Source of the DNA: Aquincola tertiaricarbonis
GTDB lineage: Bacteria > Pseudomonadota > Gammaproteobacteria > Burkholderiales > Burkholderiaceae_C
DNA: 64,000 bases
NCBI RefSeq assembly: GCF_023573145.1
Contig: NZ_CP097636.1
Coordinates: 186,001 to 250,000, forward strand
Direction of reading: 5' to 3'
In this document: positions 33,036 to 64,000 of the stretch, in pieces
How positions within the stretch are numbered: the first letter of the stretch is position 1
How the letters are laid out: every line of letters begins with the position of its first letter
The notes under the pieces: generated by a model
The model's input: the letters and a program-made list of their open reading frames with translations, nothing else
Database searches by the model: none
What the model was told of the DNA's origin: nothing
Position numbers and translations under genes: made by a program

Positions 33036-35252
33036 TCAGCGGCGTTTCGGGTCCTGGGCCAGCGCGTGCTGTAGATGCCACAGAAGATCGCCTTCGGTGA
33101 CGACCGCCCGCAGGGCAGCCCGTCGCGCGTCGGCTTCTTCCCAATGTTGCGAGCGCGCCGCGGCCAGCGCAAGCTGCCAATTGCGCAGTTGCGCTTCTCG
33201 CGCCGAACCGGGTGGCGCTGGATGCACATCCAGCGTGAAAAGGTTCACAGGCTGCTGGCGGCCTTTGACCTGCACTTCGCCCACCTCCACCCAGGGCAGG
33301 CTGGCCGCCGTGGTCGGCTCGGTGGCGAACACCGCGTCGCGGGTGGCGGCGCTGATCAGCAGGTCGACGCCGTAGCGTCGGGTCAGGCCCTCGATGCGCG
33401 AGGCCAGGTTCACGCTGTCGCCCAGCGCGGTGTAGGCGCGGCGCAGGTCGGAGCCCATGTCGCCGACGCAGGCCACGCCGGTGTGCAGGCCGATGCCCAT
33501 GGACAGCGTGGGCTGGCCGCGAGCCCGCAGTTCATGGTTCAGCGCATCCAGCGCCTGCGCCATCGCCTGCGCGGCCTGCAGCGCCAGCACCGCGTGGCGG
33601 GGCTCGGCCAGCGGCGCGCCCCAAAAGGCCATCAGCGCATCGCCGATGAACTTGTCCAGCGTGCCGCCGTGGGCGTGGATCACGGCCGTCATGCGCGAGA
33701 AGAACTGGTTCAGCAGCTCGCGCAGGGCCAGCGGTTCCAGGTGTTCAGACAGCGTGGTGAAGCCCCGCAGGTCGCAGAACAGCAGCGTCAGCTCGCGGTT
33801 CTCGGCCAGGAGCGCGGCGCGGGTGTAGCGCTCGGGCTCACGCGCCATGCGCCGCACCAGTTCGCGCGGCACGTAGCTGCCGAAGAGGCGCACCAGGCTG
33901 CGCCGCGAGCGGCCTTCCACCAGGTAGCCCCAGGCCATCACCACCGCAAAGCCGATGGCCAGCAGCACCAAGGCCGAAGCGAGCGGCAGCGCCAGTCCAT
34001 GGACCTGCCAGGCGTACAGGTTGATGCCCAGCAGCGTGGCCAGCACCCCGGCGCTCAGCGCCACGCAGCCGATGGCCGACAGCCGGCGCAGGCCCACGCC
34101 CAGCACCCCGGCGGTGACCAGCAGCAGGCAGGCCTCGTAGCCGGCGGCCCAGTCGGGCCGCACCGGCAGCCGGCCCTGGTCCAGGCCGGCGATCAGCGAC
34201 GCATGGATTTCCACGCCCGGCTGCGCCGGGTGCACGGGCGTGGCCCGCAGGTCGCCGAGCGCGGGCACCGTGGTGCCGACCAGCACGCGGTAGCCCGCCA
34301 GTCGGCCGGCGGGCAGGCGGCCGGCCAGCACGTCGGCCGCGCTGTGGCGCTCAAAGGCGCCCGACATCGGCCCGGCGTGGCGGCGAAAGGGCACCTGCAC
34401 GGCGCCGCGTTCGTCCACCGCGATGCGCTGCGCGCCCAGGCGCAGGGCCACCAGCGCCGGCCCGCCCGGGGCGGGCGCCAGCTCCAGCGTGGGCGCGGGC
34501 ACCTTGGCGCCCAGCCGCCAGACGGCCAGCGACAGCGATTCGTAGAGCTGCGGCGCCGCGGCATCGCCGGTGTAGGCGGCCACCAGCAGCGCGGAGCGGA
34601 TGAGGCCGTCGTCGTCCGGCAGCGCATTGATGAAGCCGCCGGCCGGTGCTGCCGCGGTCAGGCGGTCCAGGCTGGCGCCGTGGCCGTTCCAGCGCAGCAG
34701 GCCGGCGGGCAGCGGGTCGGGCAACGCTGTCGGCAGCGCGGGGGGCAGCTGGCCGCTGCGGGCGCCCGCGCGGTCGCTGGTCAGGTAGAAGGGCAGAGCC
34801 ACCGGGCGCCGGGCCAGCGCGCGGGCCAGCACGGCGTCGTTGTCGAGTTGCTCGCGCAGCGCGGGCAGGCGGGCGGCCAGCGTGGCATCGTCGCGCGCCA
34901 GCCGCTGCAGCACGGTCAGCGGGCCGGGGTCGGGCTCGGCCAGCACCAGGTCGAAGCCGGCGGCGGCCACCTGCTGGCGGTCGAACAGCTCATCGGTCAG
35001 CCGGGCCAGCCGGTCGCGCGGCCAGGGCCAGCGGCCCAGCTCGGCCAGGCTGGCTTCGTCGATGTCGATGATGGCGATGCGCGGTGGCACCGTGGGCTCG
35101 GCCGTCCAGCGGGTGCGGGCATCGGCCATGGTCTGGTCCAGCCGCTCCACCAGTTCCAGGGGCAGCAGCCGCACGGCATGGGCGATGCCCAGCAACAGCA
35201 GCACGGCCCAGAAGGCCGTGGCCACCAGCGTGGTGCGTCGACGGCCGTTCAC
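33036..35252 (-). CDS. CHASE2-domain adenylate/guanylate cyclase (class III)
   Basis: A 738-residue inner-membrane receptor cyclase. It has an N-terminal transmembrane helix (VATAFWAVLLLLGIAHAV), a periplasmic CHASE2 sensor (about 40-350, starting IAIIDIDEASLAELGRWPW), about three transmembrane helices (about 360-440), then a class III cyclase domain. Metal-binding Asp494 is in LFCDLRGFT and Asp538 in DKFIGDALMAFW; ALGDSVNLASRIE is the dimer/ribose motif. It is complete and expected to be active. The signal sensed by CHASE2 domains is unknown. It lies 40 bp after the FHA gene and before the phosphodiesterase. Base choice (cAMP or cGMP) is not certain, but cAMP is the usual product. Confidence 0.9.
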   Translation of the reverse strand: MNGRRRTTLVATAFWAVLLLLGIAHAVRLLPLELVERLDQTMADARTRWTAEPTVPPRIAIIDIDEASLAELGRWPWPRDRLARLTDELFDRQQVAAAGFDLVLAEPDPGPLTVLQRLARDDATLAARLPALREQLDNDAVLARALARRPVALPFYLTSDRAGARSGQLPPALPTALPDPLPAGLLRWNGHGASLDRLTAAAPAGGFINALPDDDGLIRSALLVAAYTGDAAAPQLYESLSLAVWRLGAKVPAPTLELAPAPGGPALVALRLGAQRIAVDERGAVQVPFRRHAGPMSGAFERHSAADVLAGRLPAGRLAGYRVLVGTTVPALGDLRATPVHPAQPGVEIHASLIAGLDQGRLPVRPDWAAGYEACLLLVTAGVLGVGLRRLSAIGCVALSAGVLATLLGINLYAWQVHGLALPLASALVLLAIGFAVVMAWGYLVEGRSRRSLVRLFGSYVPRELVRRMAREPERYTRAALLAENRELTLLFCDLRGFTTLSEHLEPLALRELLNQFFSRMTAVIHAHGGTLDKFIGDALMAFWGAPLAEPRHAVLALQAAQAMAQALDALNHELRARGQPTLSMGIGLHTGVACVGDMGSDLRRAYTALGDSVNLASRIEGLTRRYGVDLLISAATRDAVFATEPTTAASLPWVEVGEVQVKGRQQPVNLFTLDVHPAPPGSAREAQLRNWQLALAAARSQHWEEADARRAALRAVVTEGDLLWHLQHALAQDPKRR

Positions 35253-35292
35253 GGTGGCTTTGGCAGCGCGCGCTTCGCGCGCCGCGCGAGGC

Positions 35293-35964
35293 TCAAGCCT
35301 GGATGAACTGCATCTGGGTGCCGGCCAGCTCGATCACGTCGCCGTTCTTGAGCGGCACGGATTCACCGACCAGCGGCACGCCATTGACCGTGGGGCGCGA
35401 CGTGCCTTCCACGTGGGCCAGCACATAGCCGCCCGGGCGCTTGGTGATGGAGGCCACCTGCACGCCGGGCTTGCCGACGGTGGTGACGACCTTGGTGAGC
35501 GTGACTTCGCGGCCCGCCGCGGCGCCGTTGAGCACCTTGATCGACGCGGTGCCGACGGGCGCCCCCAGGTTGCCGAAGCTGGACACCGGGGCGGGCGCGG
35601 TCTGCGCATAAGACGGCGAGACACCGGGCGCCGCGCTGCCGGGGCGCACGATCATCGTCTTCTCGTACTCGTTGCCTTCTTCGACCAGGTACTTGATCTT
35701 GTACTTGCCGATCTCGACCGTGTCGTTGTGGGCCAGCAGCTGCTTCTTGATCGCCTTGCCGTTGATGTAGGTGCCGTTGGTGCTGTTCAGGTCTTCGATG
35801 AACACGTCGGCGCCCACCATCTGCAGCACCGCATGCTCGCCGCTGACCGCCAGGTTGTCGATGACGATGTCGTTGTACGGGCGGCGGCCGAGCGTGGTCT
35901 TGTCCTTGGTGATCTGGACTTCCTTGATGACCACGCCATCCAGCGAAACGACCAGTTTGCCCAT
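35293..35964 (-). CDS. FHA-domain protein (canonical plus degenerate second FHA)
   Basis: A 223-residue cytosolic phosphothreonine reader. The first FHA domain (about 5-95) has all hallmarks: TLGRRPYNDIVI, the SGEHA loop and NSTNGTYING. After it a linker contains EYEKTMIVRPG with Thr103, reminiscent of the N-terminal pThr motif of GarA-type FHA regulators. A second FHA-like repeat (about 140-223: VGKPG, TVNGVPL, LKNGDVIELAGT) lacks the SxxH loop and may not bind pThr. It starts 76 bp after the PP2C gene. The obvious partners are the kinase and phosphatase upstream and the cyclase downstream. Phosphorylation of Thr103 is inference. Confidence 0.88.
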   Translation of the reverse strand: MGKLVVSLDGVVIKEVQITKDKTTLGRRPYNDIVIDNLAVSGEHAVLQMVGADVFIEDLNSTNGTYINGKAIKKQLLAHNDTVEIGKYKIKYLVEEGNEYEKTMIVRPGSAAPGVSPSYAQTAPAPVSSFGNLGAPVGTASIKVLNGAAAGREVTLTKVVTTVGKPGVQVASITKRPGGYVLAHVEGTSRPTVNGVPLVGESVPLKNGDVIELAGTQMQFIQA

Positions 35965-36040
35965 GCTTGACCTTATGCGTTTGACGTCTGCCGGCGGCCG
36001 CGGCCGCCCGGCGTGTGATTGGTGATGCGGTGGTGAAGGC

Positions 36041-36826
36041 CTAGCGTTTGAAGCGCCACCACGGGCGCGCAGCACCGGCGGCGCTGTCCTGAACGCGGAC
36101 CAGGATCACGGCGATATTATCCTTTCCACCCGCCTCATTGGCTGCATCGATCAGCCCACGGCCCGCGGCCTCCAGCGACTCATGCGACAGCAGCACCTGC
36201 GCGATGCGGTTGTCCGGCACCATGTCAGACAAGCCGTCGGAGCACATCAGGTACAGGTCGCCGGGCTCGGTGGCATGCAAGTGGGTTTCCAGCAGCACGG
36301 TGTCTTCCACGCCCACCGCCCGCGTCACCAGGTTCTTGTTGGCCGAGTAGGCCGCCTGCTCGGGCGTGATGAGGCCGGCGTCCAGCTGCTCCTGCAGCAG
36401 CGAATGGTCGCGCGTGAGCTGCGCCAGCCGCCCGGCCCGCAGCCGGTAGGCCCGCGAGTCGCCCACGTGGCCCAGCAGGGCGCGCTGCTCGCGGAACACC
36501 GATAACACCAGCGTCGTGCCCATGCCGGCGTACTGCGGGTTGGCATTGGCCGCGTTGAAGATGGCGCGGTTGGCGTTGTCCACGCAGATGTCCATCGCGC
36601 GGCGCACGTCGGCATCGGAAGCCTGGGCGCTGGCCTCGTGCAGCCAGCGGCCCAGCTCGGCCTGGATGAAGCTGGTGAGCATGCCGCTGGCCACCTCGCC
36701 GGCGTTGTAGCCGCCCATGCCATCGGCCAGTACCGCCAGCCCGGCCCGTTCGTCCAGGGCCACGGCATCTTCGTTGTTGCTGCGGGCCCGACCGGTGTCG
36801 ATGGCGCTGAAAAACTCGAGAGGCAT
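36041..36826 (-). CDS. PP2C-family Ser/Thr protein phosphatase (Stp1-like)
   Basis: A 261-residue PPM phosphatase that would oppose the neighbouring kinase. Metal-binding motifs: TGRARSNNEDA, LADGMGGYNAGEVAS, LGHVGDSRAYRLR, MCSDGLSDMV and KDNIAVILV. It is soluble, with no membrane anchor. The ATG at 36826 (MPLEFFSAID) gives the usual family N-terminus and length. A GTG at 36877, immediately after the kinase stop codon, is a possible alternative that would add 17 residues and allow tight coupling; neither has a clear ribosome-binding site. Confidence 0.9.
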   Translation of the reverse strand: MPLEFFSAIDTGRARSNNEDAVALDERAGLAVLADGMGGYNAGEVASGMLTSFIQAELGRWLHEASAQASDADVRRAMDICVDNANRAIFNAANANPQYAGMGTTLVLSVFREQRALLGHVGDSRAYRLRAGRLAQLTRDHSLLQEQLDAGLITPEQAAYSANKNLVTRAVGVEDTVLLETHLHATEPGDLYLMCSDGLSDMVPDNRIAQVLLSHESLEAAGRGLIDAANEAGGKDNIAVILVRVQDSAAGAARPWWRFKR

Positions 36827-36877
36827 TGGGCGCGCTGTGGCGGTGGATGAGGTCGGCGGATTGTGCTCTTTTGTCAC

Positions 36878-37813
36878 TCAACGTGGCCACGGCGCGACCG
36901 TGGCTGCGTCTTTTGACACGCCGTGGCCCTGCCAACGGGCCGCCATCTCGCGCAGCTGGCGTGCGATCGGCAGGCCATCGGCGGGCCGTGCGCGCGGGGT
37001 GCGGTCGAGCAGCCGTTCCGTCAGCTCGGCCAGCTCGGCCGGCAGGTCGGGCCGCAACAGGCGCAGCGACTGCGGAGGGCCGCCCGCGATCGCGCGCAGC
37101 AGCGTGCCCATGGATTCGCCTTCGTAAGGCAGGCGGGCGGTGAGCAGCTGGAACAGCAGCACGCCCAGCGCATAAAGGTCGCTGCCGGGGTGCGGCGGTG
37201 CGCCGGCCAGCAGCTCCGGCGCCATGAAGGCCGGGGTGCCCAGCACCAGGCCGGTCCGGGTGCGGGTGCCGTCGGTCAGCCGCGCCAGGCCGAAGTCGGT
37301 GATCTTCACCCGCCGGGTGGGCAGCTCCACCATCACGTTGGCGGGCTTGATGTCCCGGTGCACCACACCCTGCGCGTGGGCATGGGCCAGGCCGTCGGCC
37401 ACGGAGGCGGCCAGCTGCAGCGCCAGCGGCTCGGGCAGCAGGTGGCGGCGCTGGGTGTAGCGCTCCATCGTGCAGCCGGGCAACGCCTGCATCGCCAGGT
37501 AGGCCAGGCCGCGGCGCTCGCCGCAGCCGTACACGCGCACGATGTGGGGGTGGCGCAGTCGCGAGGTGGTCAGCGCCTCCAGCGCCAGGCGCTCACGCGC
37601 CAGCGGCAGCTCGTCGCGCTCGAACTGGCGCACCAGGTCGATGGTCTTGAGGGCCAGCAGCTTGCCGCGCCGGTTGGACGCCAGGTACACGGCGCCGATG
37701 GCGCCGCGGCCCAGCAGGCGATGGATGCGGTAGCCGTCGAACTCGCTGTCCCGCTGCAGTAGCCGTTCACTGCCTTGGGCAGGGCCGATCGGCCGCTTCG
37801 TCGAATCCCCCAT
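36878..37813 (-). CDS. Soluble Ser/Thr protein kinase (PknB-type catalytic domain)
   Basis: A 311-residue Hanks-type kinase: glycine loop GRGAIGAVY, catalytic Lys56 in LLALKTIDL, HRDIKPAN with Asp154, ITDFGLAR with Asp173, an activation loop rich in Thr (GTRTRTGLVLGTPAFMAPE), and the C-lobe YALGVLLFQLLTARLPY. There is no transmembrane helix, PASTA or other sensory extension, so its input must come through partners or a co-expressed sensor such as the CHASE2 protein. It is the first gene of the phospho/cyclic-nucleotide operon. A 20-bp perfect palindrome lies about 50 bp upstream of its ATG. Confidence 0.92.
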   Translation of the reverse strand: MGDSTKRPIGPAQGSERLLQRDSEFDGYRIHRLLGRGAIGAVYLASNRRGKLLALKTIDLVRQFERDELPLARERLALEALTTSRLRHPHIVRVYGCGERRGLAYLAMQALPGCTMERYTQRRHLLPEPLALQLAASVADGLAHAHAQGVVHRDIKPANVMVELPTRRVKITDFGLARLTDGTRTRTGLVLGTPAFMAPELLAGAPPHPGSDLYALGVLLFQLLTARLPYEGESMGTLLRAIAGGPPQSLRLLRPDLPAELAELTERLLDRTPRARPADGLPIARQLREMAARWQGHGVSKDAATVAPWPR

Positions 37814-58100: not shown

Positions 58101-58796
58101 ATGTTGCTTGAATTCCTGTCGCCGCTGGGCGGCGACGTGCAGGCCCTGCGGCCTCCACGCCTGCGAGAGCCTGCCTATGCCGGGCCCGAACGCCGGGGTG
58201 ACGCCGGCGTGGCGCAGTGCCTGCGCGCGGTGATGGATGAGATCGACTACGGCGTGCTGGTGGTCCGCCACCCGGGTCGCGTGATCCACATGAACCATGC
58301 TGCGCGGCTGACGCTGGCGCGCGAGCATGCGCTGGAGGTGATCGGCACCCAGTTGCGCGCCCGTTCGGCCGAGGACGACCTCGCGGTGCGCGAGGCGCTG
58401 GCCGCTGCCGCCGGCCGGCACCGGCGCTGCATGCTCAGCTTGGGCCCGGCGGGCGCGCGGGTCAACGTGGTGGTGGTGCCCTTGCCGGCCTCGGCCGAGG
58501 TGCCGGAAGGCGCCGTGCTGCTGATGTTCAACAAGCGCCAGATGTGCGAGGAACTGTCGGTCGAGGCCTTCGCCCGCTGCCACGGCCTCACCGGCACCGA
58601 GACGCAGGTGCTCAAGGCCCTGTGCGCCGGCGCGCGGCCGGCGGCGGTGGCGCAGACGCAGGGGGTGCGCCTGTCCACCGTGCGCACCCAGATCAGCAGC
58701 ATCCGCGCCAAGACCGGGGCGGCGACCCTGCGAGACCTGGTGCAACAGGTGGCGCGCCTGCCACCGATGACCACCACCTTGCGCGCCTTTCCCTGA
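58101..58796 (+). CDS. LuxR-family transcriptional regulator
   Basis: A 231-residue regulator. The N-terminal part (about 40-150) looks PAS-like (VMDEIDYGVLVVRHPGRVIHMN, in pieces). The C-terminal HTH is LuxR type: HGLTGTETQVLKALCAGA, then GVRLSTVRTQISSIRAKTGA. There is no receiver Asp, so it is not a response regulator. GGGGGAG lies close before the ATG. It stands 89 bp upstream of the CRP-like gene on the same strand and may belong to the same cluster. Target genes unknown. Confidence 0.85.
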   Translation: MLLEFLSPLGGDVQALRPPRLREPAYAGPERRGDAGVAQCLRAVMDEIDYGVLVVRHPGRVIHMNHAARLTLAREHALEVIGTQLRARSAEDDLAVREALAAAAGRHRRCMLSLGPAGARVNVVVVPLPASAEVPEGAVLLMFNKRQMCEELSVEAFARCHGLTGTETQVLKALCAGARPAAVAQTQGVRLSTVRTQISSIRAKTGAATLRDLVQQVARLPPMTTTLRAFP

Positions 58797-58885: not shown

Positions 58886-59560
58886 ATGAAGGCTCGTCTG
58901 TCGAGCATGTTGAATCAAGACCGCGAAGAAGATCCTTCCAGCAATTTCCTGAGTCCCCTTTTGCAACGCCTGGCACAACGCGGGCAAGTCTGTCATTACC
59001 GCACGGGTACTTTGCTGATTCAGGAGGGCGACCGCGACGACACGATCTACATCCTGTTGGCGGGGCGGGTGCGGGCTTATTCGGTGGGCGACAAAGGCCA
59101 GGAGATCACCTATGGCGTTTACGGGCCGGGTGAGTACATGGGTGAATTGAGCCTGGACGGTGGTGCTCGTTCGGCCAGCGTCGTGACGATCGAGCGTTGC
59201 ACTTGCGCCGTGATCAATCGGCAGGCGGTGCTGGAGCACATTGCGCAATACCCCGAATTCGCTTTCGAATTGCTCGCGAAGGTGATTCGCCGTGTGCGCA
59301 GCGCCACCACCAATGCACGCCAGCTGGCATTGAACGACGTGTACGGCCGCCTGATCCACATGGTCAACACCATCGCGGAGCCTGCGGGCGACGGCACGCG
59401 CGTGATCCGCGAACGCTGGACGCACAAGGAGATGTCGAGCCGCCTCGGCTGCTCGCGGGCCATGGTGAGCCGTTTGCTGAAGGACCTGGAAACCGGCGGC
59501 TATGTGCGGCTCGAGCCCGAGTGCTTCGTGATCTGCAAACCCTTGCCCACCCGCTGGTGA
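58886..59560 (+). CDS. CRP/FNR-family transcriptional regulator
   Basis: A 224-residue cyclic-nucleotide-type regulator. In the N-terminal beta-roll the phosphate cassette reads GELSLDGGARSASVV with the Glu (87) and Arg-Ser (95-96) that bind cAMP in E. coli CRP, so cAMP or cGMP binding is plausible. No iron-sulphur Cys set. The HTH (about 178-202) is THKEMSSRLGCSRAMVSRLLKDLE, where the recognition-helix Glu of CRP is replaced by Ala. The stop overlaps the next start as TGATG, so it is translationally coupled to a CHASE2 cyclase that could make its ligand. A second ATG seven codons in is possible. Confidence 0.9.
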   Translation: MKARLSSMLNQDREEDPSSNFLSPLLQRLAQRGQVCHYRTGTLLIQEGDRDDTIYILLAGRVRAYSVGDKGQEITYGVYGPGEYMGELSLDGGARSASVVTIERCTCAVINRQAVLEHIAQYPEFAFELLAKVIRRVRSATTNARQLALNDVYGRLIHMVNTIAEPAGDGTRVIRERWTHKEMSSRLGCSRAMVSRLLKDLETGGYVRLEPECFVICKPLPTRW

Positions 59561-61788
59561 TGGCGCTGCCCCGCGGCGCCGGCAGCCCGTGGCGCCGTGG
59601 TGCCTGGTGGCTCACCGTGATCCTGCTGCCCTTGCTGGGCCTGCTGGCCTGGGCACTGGAGCCGCTGCTGCCCGTCGAGTCCGGCCCGGGCCTGCAGGGC
59701 CTGTTCCATTGGCGGGGCCTGCGGCCCCCGCCCGCCGGTGTGGTGGTGGTGGCCATCGACGAGCACGCAGCCGCCACCTTCGGCCTGCCCGAGCGGCCGC
59801 GTCAATGGCCGCGGCGCCTGCATGGCGAACTGGTCGACCGGCTGCATGCGGCCGGCGCGGGACTGGTCGCCTTCGATCTCACTTTTGAGACGCCGACCCC
59901 CGACGACGAGGCGCTGGGCCGCAGCCTGCGGCAGGCCGGCAATGTGCTGGTCACCTCGTCGCTGCGCCGCGATGCCTGGCGCCAGGGGACAGGTGAAGTG
60001 GTGGTGGAGCAGCTGCGGCCGGCCGTGCCGGTGATCGGCGCGGCGGCGCTGGACCAGGCGCCGTTCGTGCTGCCGAAGGACGCGCGCATCGACATGTACT
60101 GGGCCTTTCGCCGCGATGCCGGCCACATGCCCAGCCTGCCGGTGCTGGCCTTCCACCTGCAGCACCGTGACGCGGCGCAGGCCTTGGCCGACCTGGTGTG
60201 CGCGGAAGCAGCCCTTCGTCACTGCCCGTCGATGGAGCCGGCGGGCGAGCCACCTTCCGCTGCGGTGAGCCGGCTGCGCGAACGCTTCGTGGAAGACCCG
60301 ACGCTGGTCGACCGGGTGGCGCATCGCCTGGACGAGATGCCCGACGTGCAATTGCCCGTGCCCCGCACGCAGATCGAGGCACTGCTGGCCTTGCATGCGG
60401 GCCACGACGTGGTGCCGCTGAACTTCTACGGCCCTTCGCGCAGCATCCGCACCGTGTCGTACGCGGACCTGCCGGCTGTGCTGGCGGCCGAGCCGGCGCT
60501 GTTCCGCGACGCGATGGTCTTCGTCGGCTTTTCCGCGCAATCGGCCGGTGCGCAGGATCGCCTGCGCGACGACTACCGCACCGTCTTTTCCGATGGCTCG
60601 GGCGTGGACATGAGCGGCGTGGAGATTGCCGCCACAGCGTATGCCAACCTGGCCGACGGACACCGGCTGAACGCGTTGTCACCCGCCGCGTGGGCGGCGT
60701 GGCTGGTGCTGTGGGGCACCTGGCTGACGGTGCTGGCCCACGGGCCGCGGCCGCGCTGGCAGGCGGTGCTGGGCGTCGGCTCCGCGCTGGCGGTGGCGGC
60801 GGGCAGTGCCTGGGCCTTCCAGGCCGACTGGTGGCTGCCCTGGGCCATTCCGCTGCTGTTGCAGTGGCCGGCGGCGGTGGGCCTGGCCCTGTGGCTGCAT
60901 GCCCATCGCAATCACCAGCGTCACCACCGCCTGCGCGCGGCGTTTTCGCGCTTCGTGCCGCGGGAGGTGGCCGACCTGCTGTCGCAAGGCGCGGGTGAGC
61001 TGGCAGACCGCCACCGCATGAGCCACGGCGTGTGCATGGCCACCGACGTGGAGCAATACACCGCGCTTGCGGAGTCGCTGCCGGCGCAGGCGCTGGGTGA
61101 GCAGCTCAATGCGTACTACGCGCGTCTGTTTGAGCCCATCGGGCAGGCGGGCGGCGCCGTGATGGACATCGTGGGCGACGCGATGATGGCCGTGTGGGAG
61201 GCGCCAGCCGACGACATCGCCCGCCGGCGCGCGGCCTGCGAGGCGGCGCTGGCCATCCAGCAGCGCATGGCGGTGCCGCCCGATGCGCACACGCCGGCCT
61301 GGCCCACGCGCATCGGTCTGCATGCCGGCGAGTTGCGCATTGGCGTGGTGGGGGCCCGTCCGCACTACCAGTTCCGCGCGGTGGGGGATGCGGTGAACAC
61401 CGCTTCGCGGCTGGAGGGCTTGAACAAGCTGCTGGGTACGCGGGTGCTGGCTTCGGCCGCGCTGGTGCAGGGGCTGGAGGGCCTGTGGTTGCGGCCCCTG
61501 GGCAGCTTCATGCTGGCGGGCAAGCAGGCCGCACTGGATGTGGTGGAGGTGATGGGCCGACCCGCATGGCCCGGGCAGCAACCGCCCGAGCTGCTGCGCG
61601 CTTTTGCGCAGGCCCTGGCGCAATACCGCAGCGGCCAGGTGGAGGCGGCGCTGGCGGCCTTCAGTGCATTGCAGCAGGCTCATCCCGACGACGGCCCTAC
61701 GGGCTATTACGTACAGCGTTGCCGCAGCCACCTGGCCGAGCCTGCGAACCACGATCCGGCGTTACCAATTCGGGTGTTTTCCAAATGA
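59560..61788 (+). CDS. CHASE2-domain adenylate/guanylate cyclase (second copy)
   Basis: A 742-residue receptor cyclase. N-terminal helix (WWLTVILLPLLGLLAWAL), periplasmic CHASE2 (about 45-370; VVVVAIDEHAAATFGLPERP... start), three helices (about 375-450), then a class III cyclase with metal Asp496 in MATDVEQYTAL and Asp540 in MDIVGDAMMAVWE. AVGDAVNTASRLEG follows. It differs from the copy at 33036 by lacking the Lys in the DKFIGD-type motif (here VMDIVGD), so substrate choice may differ. A short TPR-like tail follows the cyclase domain. Its start overlaps the CRP-like gene stop; upstream of that ATG the open frame is a shadow. Confidence 0.88.
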   Translation: MALPRGAGSPWRRGAWWLTVILLPLLGLLAWALEPLLPVESGPGLQGLFHWRGLRPPPAGVVVVAIDEHAAATFGLPERPRQWPRRLHGELVDRLHAAGAGLVAFDLTFETPTPDDEALGRSLRQAGNVLVTSSLRRDAWRQGTGEVVVEQLRPAVPVIGAAALDQAPFVLPKDARIDMYWAFRRDAGHMPSLPVLAFHLQHRDAAQALADLVCAEAALRHCPSMEPAGEPPSAAVSRLRERFVEDPTLVDRVAHRLDEMPDVQLPVPRTQIEALLALHAGHDVVPLNFYGPSRSIRTVSYADLPAVLAAEPALFRDAMVFVGFSAQSAGAQDRLRDDYRTVFSDGSGVDMSGVEIAATAYANLADGHRLNALSPAAWAAWLVLWGTWLTVLAHGPRPRWQAVLGVGSALAVAAGSAWAFQADWWLPWAIPLLLQWPAAVGLALWLHAHRNHQRHHRLRAAFSRFVPREVADLLSQGAGELADRHRMSHGVCMATDVEQYTALAESLPAQALGEQLNAYYARLFEPIGQAGGAVMDIVGDAMMAVWEAPADDIARRRAACEAALAIQQRMAVPPDAHTPAWPTRIGLHAGELRIGVVGARPHYQFRAVGDAVNTASRLEGLNKLLGTRVLASAALVQGLEGLWLRPLGSFMLAGKQAALDVVEVMGRPAWPGQQPPELLRAFAQALAQYRSGQVEAALAAFSALQQAHPDDGPTGYYVQRCRSHLAEPANHDPALPIRVFSK

Positions 61789-61902
61789 ATTCGCCCGCAA
61801 TTCAGTGAACAAATGCGATAGTCTTCGCGGTTGAATATTTACGTCTGGTTGCACCGCGCGCTGTCTGTGTGCAAGCCGACTCCTGATAGCGACCGCACTG
61901 CC
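61789..61902. other. Gap before the FecR-TPR gene
   Basis: A 114-bp stretch, unusually AT-rich for this window at its left end (AATTCAGTGAACAAATGCG, GTTGAATATTTACG). It may carry a promoter, but I cannot assign a -35/-10 pair or a CRP-type TGTGA-N6-TCACA site. No gene fits in it. Confidence 0.35.
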
Positions 61903-64000
61903 ATGTACACACGATGGGCTGGCCCCGCCACCCGATCCTTCGCAGTCAGGTTCGCCAAGCTCCGGATCTGTTGCGCCGCGCTGGGCAGCCTGCTGCTGGG
62001 GGGCGCCCCGGCCCAGGCGGCCGACCTTTGTCCTCAGCCCATCGCCCGCATGGCGTCCGTGCAGGGCCTGGTGGAAGTGCGTCGCACCGATGCCGCCTGG
62101 CAGCGCGCCGAGCTTGACCAGCCGTTGTGCGCAGGCGACGCGGTGCGGGTGGGTGAGCGCAGCCGCGCTGCGCTGCTGATGAGCAACCAGACCACGCTGC
62201 GGCTGGATCAGCACTCCCACGTCACCCTGCGCGCGCCCGAGGCACCGCGCGGCACGGTGATCGAGCAGCTGCGCGGCATCGTCAACGTGATCACGCGCAC
62301 GCCGCAGCCGTTCCGGCTGACCACGCCCTTCGTCAATGCCAACGTCGAAGGCACCGAGTTCCTGGTGCAGGTGGGCGCGACCGAGTCGAGCGTGCTGGTG
62401 GTCGAAGGGCGCGTGGTGGCCAGCAACGAGGCGGGCCGGGTATCGCTGCAGGCCGGTGAGCAGGCCAGCGGCGACGCCGTGACGCTGCCGCGCAAGACGC
62501 TGGTGGTGCGGCCGCGCAATGCGGTGCAGTGGGCTGTGCACTATCCCACGGTGCGGCCTCGCCAGACGGCCGACGAGCGCCTGCAGCGCGCCGCCCGCCT
62601 GCTGGACGTGGGTCGTGCCGATGAAGCCCTGCCGGTGCTGCAGGCCATTGCCGCGGGCGATGCCGCCTACGCCGAATCGCTGGCGCTGCAGGCCATGATC
62701 GCTCTGGTGCAGAACCAGCCCGAGGCGGCGCAGTCGCTGTCGCAAGCGGCGCTGGCGGCGGATCCGCGGTCCAGCGCGGCAATGCTGTCGGCTTCTTATG
62801 TGCAGCAGTCGCGTTTCGAGCTGGACGCTGCCGCCACGCAGGCTCAAGCCGCCGCCGCGCTGGAGCCCGATAACGCCCTGGCGTGGGCCCGGCTGGCCGA
62901 GCTGCAGCTGTACAGCGGCCGGCTGGCGGACGCGACGCAGGCCGCCCGGCAGGCCGTCACTAGCGGCCCGGCCCTCTCGCGGGCCCACCTCGTGATGGGT
63001 TTCACCCGGCTGGCGCACTTCGACACCGTCGGCGCCCGCGCCGCGTTCGAGCGCGCGTTGCAGCTCGACCAGGCCGACCCGCTGCCGCGCATGGGCCTGG
63101 GGCTGGTGTTCCTGCGCGAAGGCCAACGAACGGCCGGCCGTGAGCAGATCGACATCGCGGTCAGCCTGGACCCGGAGAACGCGCTGCTGCGCAGCTACTT
63201 GGGCAAGGTGTACGCGCAGGAGCGCCGTGGCGCCGCCGCCGAGACGCAGTTCCGCCTGGCGCGTGAGCGTGATCCGCTCGACCCCACGCCCTGGTTCTAC
63301 GAGGCGCTTTACAAGCTGGTGAACAACCGGCCGGTGGAGGCGCTGGACGACATGTCGCGGTCGATCGCGCTCAACGACAACCGGGCGGTGCTGCGTTCAC
63401 GCCTGCTGCTGGACGACGACCGTGCCGAGCGCAGCGTGGCATTGGCCCGCATCCACGACGAGCTGGGCTTCGGCCGCCTGGGCATCGCCGAGGCCACCAA
63501 GGCCCTGGCCATCGACCCCGACCATGCGGCAGCGCACCGATTCCTGGCCGATGCTTACACGGCGCTGGACCGGCACGAAGCCGCCGTCGCCAGTGAAAGC
63601 CTGCAGGCGCTGCTGCTGCAACCGGTGCGGCCGGCGCATCTGCTGCCGCGGCGCAGCTCCACCGCGGTGATGCGCTCGGTGGACGAATCGTTGCTCGGCA
63701 CCCCGGCCGACGACTCCCGCTTCTTCGAGCGCAGCGGCGCCAGCGGCCGGTTGGGTCTGGCGGCCGGCAGCCGCGGCCTGTGGTCGGCCGAGGCCAGCGC
63801 GGCTTATGCCGGCGAGCGCTTTGCGCTGGACGCCGGCGTGTTCCGCTACCACACCGACGGCTTCCGTCCCGGTTCGCAGGTGAGCCACCGTCTGGACGAT
63901 GCGCTGGTGCAATGGCAGCTGCAGACCGGCCTCATCCTGCAGGCACAACTGCGTTCGCGCCGCACGCAGTTCGGCGACGTGCGTTCGAGCTTCTCGCTGG
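61903..64000 (+). CDS. FecR-domain/TPR protein with barrel-like C-terminus (3' end outside window)
   Basis: Open from the ATG at 61903 to the window edge, 699 codons with no stop. Signal peptide (CCAALGSLLLGGAPAQA, cleaved before ADLCPQ), then a FecR domain (about 50-175: ASVQGLVEVRR, LCAGDAVRVGERSRAALL, LTTPFVNANVEGTEFLVQV, VVEGRVVASNEAG). Then come several TPR-like helical repeats (about 195-560, e.g. AWARLAELQLYSGRLADA, LEPDNA, LDPENA). From about 600 the sequence alternates hydrophobic and polar residues (GRLGLAAGSRGLWSAEAS, RFALDAGVFRYHTDGF), as in an outer-membrane barrel. In the family FecR is a peptidoglycan/periplasmic module, not always linked to iron. It follows the CHASE2 cyclase, a linkage I believe recurs. 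Confidence 0.82.
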   Translation, partial: MYTRWAGPATRSFAVRFAKLRICCAALGSLLLGGAPAQAADLCPQPIARMASVQGLVEVRRTDAAWQRAELDQPLCAGDAVRVGERSRAALLMSNQTTLRLDQHSHVTLRAPEAPRGTVIEQLRGIVNVITRTPQPFRLTTPFVNANVEGTEFLVQVGATESSVLVVEGRVVASNEAGRVSLQAGEQASGDAVTLPRKTLVVRPRNAVQWAVHYPTVRPRQTADERLQRAARLLDVGRADEALPVLQAIAAGDAAYAESLALQAMIALVQNQPEAAQSLSQAALAADPRSSAAMLSASYVQQSRFELDAAATQAQAAAALEPDNALAWARLAELQLYSGRLADATQAARQAVTSGPALSRAHLVMGFTRLAHFDTVGARAAFERALQLDQADPLPRMGLGLVFLREGQRTAGREQIDIAVSLDPENALLRSYLGKVYAQERRGAAAETQFRLARERDPLDPTPWFYEALYKLVNNRPVEALDDMSRSIALNDNRAVLRSRLLLDDDRAERSVALARIHDELGFGRLGIAEATKALAIDPDHAAAHRFLADAYTALDRHEAAVASESLQALLLQPVRPAHLLPRRSSTAVMRSVDESLLGTPADDSRFFERSGASGRLGLAAGSRGLWSAEASAAYAGERFALDAGVFRYHTDGFRPGSQVSHRLDDALVQWQLQTGLILQAQLRSRRTQFGDVRSSFSL

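Follow-up and report, generated by a model that had tools for sequence, protein, structure and literature searches.

A CRP-CHASE2 cyclase-barrel gene cluster of Aquincola tertiaricarbonis related to NsrA-CyaK-Clr signalling carries an unusual purine-recognition pair

Results

Gene organization at the end of the window

We analysed a 64,000-nucleotide stretch (G000:C2:186001-250000, hereafter the window) of the 7.1-Mb genome of Aquincola tertiaricarbonis, at whose 3′ end three plus-strand genes encode a CRP/FNR-family regulator, a CHASE2 nucleotide cyclase and an NsrA-like FecR-TPR-barrel protein. The regulator P0003 (58886-59560, 224 amino acids (aa)) carries cNMP_binding and HTH_Crp_2 domains, and the class III cyclase P0002 (59560-61788, 742 aa) carries CHASE2 and Guanylate_cyc domains. 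As an earlier reading based on the sequence alone (the sequence-only reading) had noticed, the CRP gene ends inside the start of the cyclase gene in a plus-strand TGATG (59558-59562), where the TGA stop (59558-59560) and the ATG start (59560-59562) share base A. The third gene starts with an ATG at 61903, 114 bases beyond the cyclase stop, and the window holds the N-terminal 699 of the 1102 residues of its product P0001 (61903-64000); followed past position 64000, as that reading had advised, the gene ends at G000:C2:251211 (L004:7211) and encodes a complete exported protein. A simple consensus scan detected neither a sigma70-type promoter between 58000 and 62100 nor a terminator-like site in the gap of 114 bases, and the two terminator-like sites within the cyclase gene are about as many as in shuffled sequence.

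In two further loci, one from A. tertiaricarbonis (L079) and one from the window's own genus (L050), the CRP/cyclase junction is a GTGA overlap with a GTG cyclase start, which was assigned via the homolog P0132; both loci share identical junction letters. The overlap is kept between the window and these loci, and its exact letters are not.

P0001 is a homolog of the plant-signal receptor NsrA

P0001 contains a FecR domain (PF04773, residues 79-171, 62137-62415, plus strand) by Pfam, a TPR array (residues about 225-572, 62575-63618, plus strand) by Pfam and the AlphaFold2 model, and a TonB-receptor-type β-barrel from residue 612 onward (63736-64000, plus strand, with the remainder beyond the window). 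The confident AlphaFold2 model of this exported protein shows the FecR domain, a TPR superhelix and the barrel without a plug, and about 40 residues separate the last TPR helix from the first barrel strand. Fold comparison by VIA-align over Foldseek candidates assigned the barrel to the 22-strand type of TonB-dependent transporters; TonB-receptor barrels made up most of the fold list, which also includes TPR proteins and which, with regard to the 16-strand porin barrel of TPR-barrel polysaccharide exporters, was read as a whole. The suspicion of the sequence-only reading that this protein may be an outer-membrane barrel, for which it had proposed a structure prediction, finds support in Pfam, profile and AlphaFold2 evidence, from which an outer-membrane location is predicted. 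In alignment A2, Cys43 (90% or more) and the invariant Cys76 point to a disulfide where the FecR region begins.

Searched against 72,556 plasmid records, P0001 matched 48, all from Sinorhizobium, Ensifer or Rhizobium and one annotated nsrA, with matches running through the FecR part (about residues 43-221). The nsrA gene directly precedes cyaK with a one-base overlap, and NsrA itself likewise has FecR and TPR and matches the barrel weakly. A profile of the P0001 family aligned with NsrA over 956 columns (E 1.2e-31) and, for the barrel region alone, at E 3.1e-11, while two-sequence comparison of P0002 with CyaK gave E 5e-21. By these alignments, P0001 is a near-full-length NsrA homolog.

Sinorhizobium meliloti is a root-nodule bacterium of Medicago, in which NsrA was reportedly described by Garnerone et al. 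in 2018. The passages drawn on from three accounts (PMC13001267, PMC7529298, PMC5498481) describe NsrA as an outer-membrane receptor of plant signals, CyaK, CyaD1 and CyaD2 as the CHASE2 cyclases of its pathway and the CRP-family protein Clr as its cAMP (cyclic AMP) receptor; they present this chain as genetically shown, and give neighbouring locus tags for clr (SMc02175), cyaD1 (SMc02176) and a FecR gene (SMc02177). The chain proposed by the sequence-only reading therefore belongs to a known pathway type, since P0001 is an NsrA homolog and the equivalent chain has been shown genetically in S. meliloti; that reading's statement that the chain was not characterised does not hold, and a wholly uncharacterised pathway was rejected. 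Its label "envelope-to-nucleus" is a misnomer, the host being a bacterium. In the open-licence PMC literature, with subscription papers outside the scope, no description of a CHASE2-FecR module or of a non-rhizobial NsrA module was found.

A different function for P0001, as a transporter or exporter (a TonB-dependent importer, or a relative in function of the polysaccharide exporters with TPR and barrel) whose synthesis or linked pathway is merely controlled by the cyclase and the CRP-like protein, was also considered. Polysaccharide exporters, too, are built from a TPR arm and a C-terminal barrel, and in fold the barrel resembles those of TonB-dependent transporters. Against this, no hit to the plug domain PF07715 came up even with E allowed to reach 10, the stretch joining TPR and barrel is only some 40 residues long, no synthase or TonB gene was spotted by eye in the flanking open reading frames (ORFs), part of which were scanned, and the literature presents the homolog NsrA as a receptor for signals. 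We consider this explanation quite improbable.

The cyclase-barrel pair recurs far outside rhizobia

Scanning named genomes with A1, the cyclase alignment, yielded 418 relatives, and the best 80 of these define the loci compared below; they are rich in Nitrosomonas and Thiodiazotropha, and counts over them are not independent. They come from Burkholderiales, Nitrosomonas, Nitrosospira, Chromatiales, Thiodiazotropha, Desulfobacterales, Nitrospirota and Brocadia, and the gene set recurs in beta-, gamma- and deltaproteobacteria, Nitrospirota and Brocadia, far outside rhizobia. An NsrA-like neighbour could be judged in 76 of the 80 loci, those that extend 600 bases or more 3′ of the cyclase, and was found within 1.5 kb 3′ of the cyclase on the same strand in 63. 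In three of the other 13 (L080, L123 and L156) the NsrA-like gene lies elsewhere in the locus and in the remaining ten elsewhere in the genome (10/10), so that all 76 have one; no cyclase match was found in the stretches around these ten distant copies (0/10). Loss of the barrel gene where it does not adjoin the cyclase, as in Thiodiazotropha and others, was rejected because all ten genomes hold a copy elsewhere.

A CRP-family gene lies 5′ of the cyclase in 36 of the 80 loci (33 divergent, three on the same strand) and 3′ of it in ten more, mostly from another CRP subfamily, giving 46 loci with a close CRP-family gene in three arrangements; in this count L139 (score 47) was dropped and L131, missed by the crude gene caller, was included. 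The co-conservation on which the sequence-only reading had staked its proposal is therefore present, for the barrel gene in 76/76 judged loci and for a close CRP gene in 46/80. With same-strand CRP genes before the cyclase in 3/80 loci, the tight CRP-cyclase overlap is a local trait, and the cyclase-barrel link is kept more widely than this overlap.

In a sample of 150 genomes from the order, a clear NsrA-like match is present in 12, not including that of the window, counted at 3.8e-16 or better because a weaker tally of 108/150 is mostly TPR cross-matching; the weakest of the 12, G106 and G022, score 163-172 bits. The cyclase adjoins the NsrA-like gene in 11 of them; in G016, the remaining one, a close relative of the cyclase lies on another contig. 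In the most diverged loci, L047 and L048, the barrel gene comes first, the order of nsrA-cyaK. For 120 genomes from the phylum, lists of 150 CHASE2 places and 150 FecR places were compared: 41 of the listed CHASE2 places have a listed FecR place no more than 6 kb away, where about 0.9 would be expected; this expectation assumes uniform placement and 4-Mb genomes and supports enrichment, not a rate. With 41 against about 0.9 expected, CHASE2 receptors seem to be paired commonly with FecR-domain proteins; single published cases are the BiofilmReg operon and, with TPR, MtxA, both discussed below. Several Nitrosomonas-type genomes (L036, L037, L038, L088, L095 and L197) have two or three NsrA-like genes, some of them arranged in tandem after a single cyclase gene.

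The CRP-like protein keeps a nucleotide-binding cassette

The sequence-only reading had taken P0003 for a probable nucleotide receptor, and both its cNMP_binding domain and its intact phosphate-binding cassette, G86-E87...R95-S96, fit this. These residues match those given for the pocket of Clr in the part of PMC10127613 drawn on, G85, E86, R95 and S96; at the C-helix, Clr has T140 and T141. The cassette pattern GE(L/M/I)...R(S/T) runs through 37 aligned rows (L156 being a partial row), and the C-helix pair of P0003, by alignment with mycobacterial CRP, is A140/T141, with L-T in most gammaproteobacterial orthologs. P0003 is therefore likely, as judged from these residues, to bind a cyclic nucleotide.

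In a rival reading, the cyclase and the barrel protein cooperate, but the CRP-like protein responds to a different input, or to no nucleotide at all, its neighbourhood being historical. In 34 of the 80 loci, some of them short contigs, no CRP-family gene was found close to the cyclase; the downstream CRPs of nitrifiers score 28-54 bits against P0003 and on that account belong to another subfamily; the C-helix has A140 in place of Thr; and the genome contains 14 cNMP (cyclic nucleotide)-domain genes over the cut-off and seven cyclase-domain genes, which makes cross-talk possible. Yet CRP genes stand beside the cyclase in three arrangements, even in Thiodiazotropha loci whose barrel gene is elsewhere, and the cassette residues are kept throughout the aligned rows. 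With 14 cNMP-domain genes in 7.1 Mb, chance CRP neighbours would also be few. An unlinked CRP-like protein appears unlikely to us.

The cyclase branch has replaced the adenine-selecting lysine

P0002 comprises a transmembrane (TM) helix (about 10-32), a periplasmic CHASE2 domain, three helices (about 375-463) and a catalytic domain (about 485-666), with which its AlphaFold2 model agrees in TM1, periplasmic CHASE2, membrane helices and catalytic domain (predicted local distance difference test (pLDDT) 87.4, predicted template modelling score (pTM) 0.65). The metal-binding Asp496 and Asp540 and the pair Asn613/Arg617 are invariant in the 32 A1 sequences, and equivalents of all four are kept in 79 of the 80 loci; the CHASE2 cyclase named by the sequence-only reading has, as aligned, intact catalytic residues.

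The two purine positions, located by HMMER alignment to K and T of the photoactivated adenylyl cyclase 5mbh, are D536 (codon 61165-61167, plus strand), where adenylate cyclases have the adenine-selecting lysine, and R606 (codon 61375-61377, plus strand), so that P0002 does not have the lysine found in CyaK. This lysine is kept in none of the 80 loci, where the first position is D in 69, E in three, N in seven and Q in one, an acid in 72/80 overall, and the D/R pair occurs in 67/80. The pair is present in all 13 closest homologs and in 50 of the next 57, while 44 of 49 more distant cyclases (one without a CHASE2 label) have K/T or K/S. In a family sample of 30 cyclase loci, D/R was found in four, all among the five with an NsrA-like neighbour (the fifth, L052, has E/Q), and in none of the 25 others (Fisher p 1.8e-4, or 1.1e-3 with the locus of the window left out). 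Among 29 CHASE2 loci sampled across the phylum it was found in none, two of them being unreadable at these positions.

Guanylate cyclases, according to the portion of PMC4215837 used here, carry Glu instead of the lysine, and their second position is C, S, T, H, A or G; the Asp/Arg pair is in neither of its guanylate-cyclase residue lists. Chemically, an Asp for the guanine 2-amino group with an Arg donor for O6 would fit GTP. The lost lysine and the Asp/Arg pair make cyclic GMP (cGMP) a serious candidate and suggest that the product of P0002 may be cGMP rather than cAMP. The pathway proposed below is also compatible with Asp/Arg being tolerated in adenylate cyclases and cAMP being made: several relatives are annotated "adenylate cyclase", the CyaK pathway works with cAMP, and R is missing from the second-place residues that the consulted part of PMC4215837 gives for guanylate cyclases. 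The loss of the lysine in 80/80 loci with an acid mostly in its place, and the Glu of guanylate cyclases at that very position, speak against cAMP, for which we see somewhat less than an even chance. More tentatively, the non-rhizobial NsrA-branch cyclases could be guanylate cyclases reading the purine by Asp/Arg, with an outer-membrane-cGMP-CRP pathway spread widely across nitrifiers, sulfur-oxidising symbionts and further environmental bacteria, in which cGMP signalling is not known to be common. This residue signature makes cAMP or cGMP decidable by a simple enzyme assay.

Discussion

A probable variant of NsrA-CyaK-Clr signalling

Taken together, the locus is probably a betaproteobacterial variant of NsrA-CyaK-Clr cell-surface signalling, and the chain of the sequence-only reading, from outer membrane and periplasm through CHASE2 and a cyclic nucleotide to the CRP-like regulator, finds support in homology. 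The C-terminal barrel would anchor P0001 in the outer membrane, as structure prediction and homology suggest, and the protein, by analogy with NsrA, would bind an outside ligand; its TPR arm and FecR domain may extend into the periplasm and contact the CHASE2 domain of the cyclase. The cyclase, whose catalytic residues align, would then be activated to make a cyclic nucleotide in the cytoplasm, and the CRP-like protein, co-produced through the overlapping genes, could bind that nucleotide with its aligned pocket residues and, so loaded, switch target genes.

The cluster shares with NsrA-CyaK-Clr a FecR-TPR-barrel protein matched nearly full length (its outer-membrane site predicted here), a CHASE2 cyclase gene adjoining the barrel gene (overlapping in nsrA-cyaK), the class III metal and transition-state residues (D496, D540, N613, R617) and a CRP-family receptor, whose nucleotide cassette is intact in P0003. 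It differs in having the cyclase before the barrel gene and the CRP gene within the same cluster, in the purine pair (D/R in P0002, K/S in CyaK) and in the CRP C-helix (A/T in P0003, T/T in Clr). Given its purine pair, P0002 is classed here as a variant and not as an adenylate cyclase.

Several observations weigh against this assignment. Identity is low (21% for P0001/NsrA, 29% for P0002/CyaK), CyaK has K/S where the P0002 branch does not, the first C-helix threonine of Clr (T140) is Ala in P0003 with the second kept, and in the 34 loci mentioned above no close CRP gene was found. No shared CRP-site palindrome was seen in a crude search of 30 divergent crp-cyclase intergenic regions. Of three more diverged FecR-TPR stretches looked at in the order sample (G137 and G109, 50-131 bits), the one in L202 has a cyclase near, with none near those in L200 (a 5.7-kb contig) or L201. 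In S. meliloti, SMc02177, the FecR gene beside cyaD1, is dispensable for signal perception according to the passages used from PMC13001267, PMC7529298 and PMC5498481.

Among other systems, FecA-FecR-FecI likewise ties an outer-membrane barrel and a FecR domain to a cytoplasmic regulator, whereas P0001 unites FecR domain and barrel in one protein, neither a plug nor an STN domain was matched, and a second messenger replaces the sigma factor. No separate FecR anti-sigma and extracytoplasmic function (ECF) sigma gene was found in the cluster, and the nearest sigma-like gene, seen by eye, lies 3.8 kb off on the opposite strand (L004:10995-11537). The BiofilmReg operon of Burkholderia contaminans, as described in the part of PMC5192318 consulted, also has adjoining FecR-protein and CHASE2-receptor genes; it differs in a LysM-FecR protein and an output through a CHASE2 histidine kinase and response regulator, with no barrel mentioned there. 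MtxA of magnetotactic bacteria is, in the portion of PMC4439547 used, an exported TPR protein encoded next to a CHASE2 cyclase gene, but combines an Ig-like domain with TPR, and the word FecR is absent from the paper's text.

We conclude that this is a real, widely kept signalling module, of which the unusual purine-recognition pair is the most interesting feature; the pathway type is known, and its recurrence outside rhizobia and the Asp/Arg pair are new. The sensing of plant signals by NsrA, a single studied case, expands into a design for surface sensing that is distributed broadly among bacteria. CHASE2, the signals of which were as late as 2016 termed unknown in the part of PMC5192318 cited, gains a recurrent genetic partner in FecR-domain proteins.

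Neighbouring and related genes

Upstream of the CRP gene, a plus-strand gene (58101-58796) encodes a PAS/LuxR-HTH-like regulator of 231 aa (P0004) with GerE and PAS matches below the Pfam cut-offs, and L050 and L079 likewise have a homolog of it ahead of the CRP gene. An R/R purine pair occurs in 13 of the 30 family-sample cyclase loci (L049-L078) and in the second CHASE2 cyclase of the genome, in the region L005:1171-9603 (G000:C1, about 304170-312602). A separate FecR protein (about L005:2454-4436) and an ORF that by eye resembles TPR plus barrel (1171-2559) are encoded about 3 kb upstream of the latter, so that the locus looks like a split NsrA layout, and a PEP-CTERM-like ORF (L005:11986-12618, by eye) follows. 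A third CHASE2 cyclase, with K/T, lies in the window within 33036-37813 on the minus strand, in line with same-strand genes that by eye resemble FHA, PP2C-phosphatase and Ser/Thr-kinase genes.
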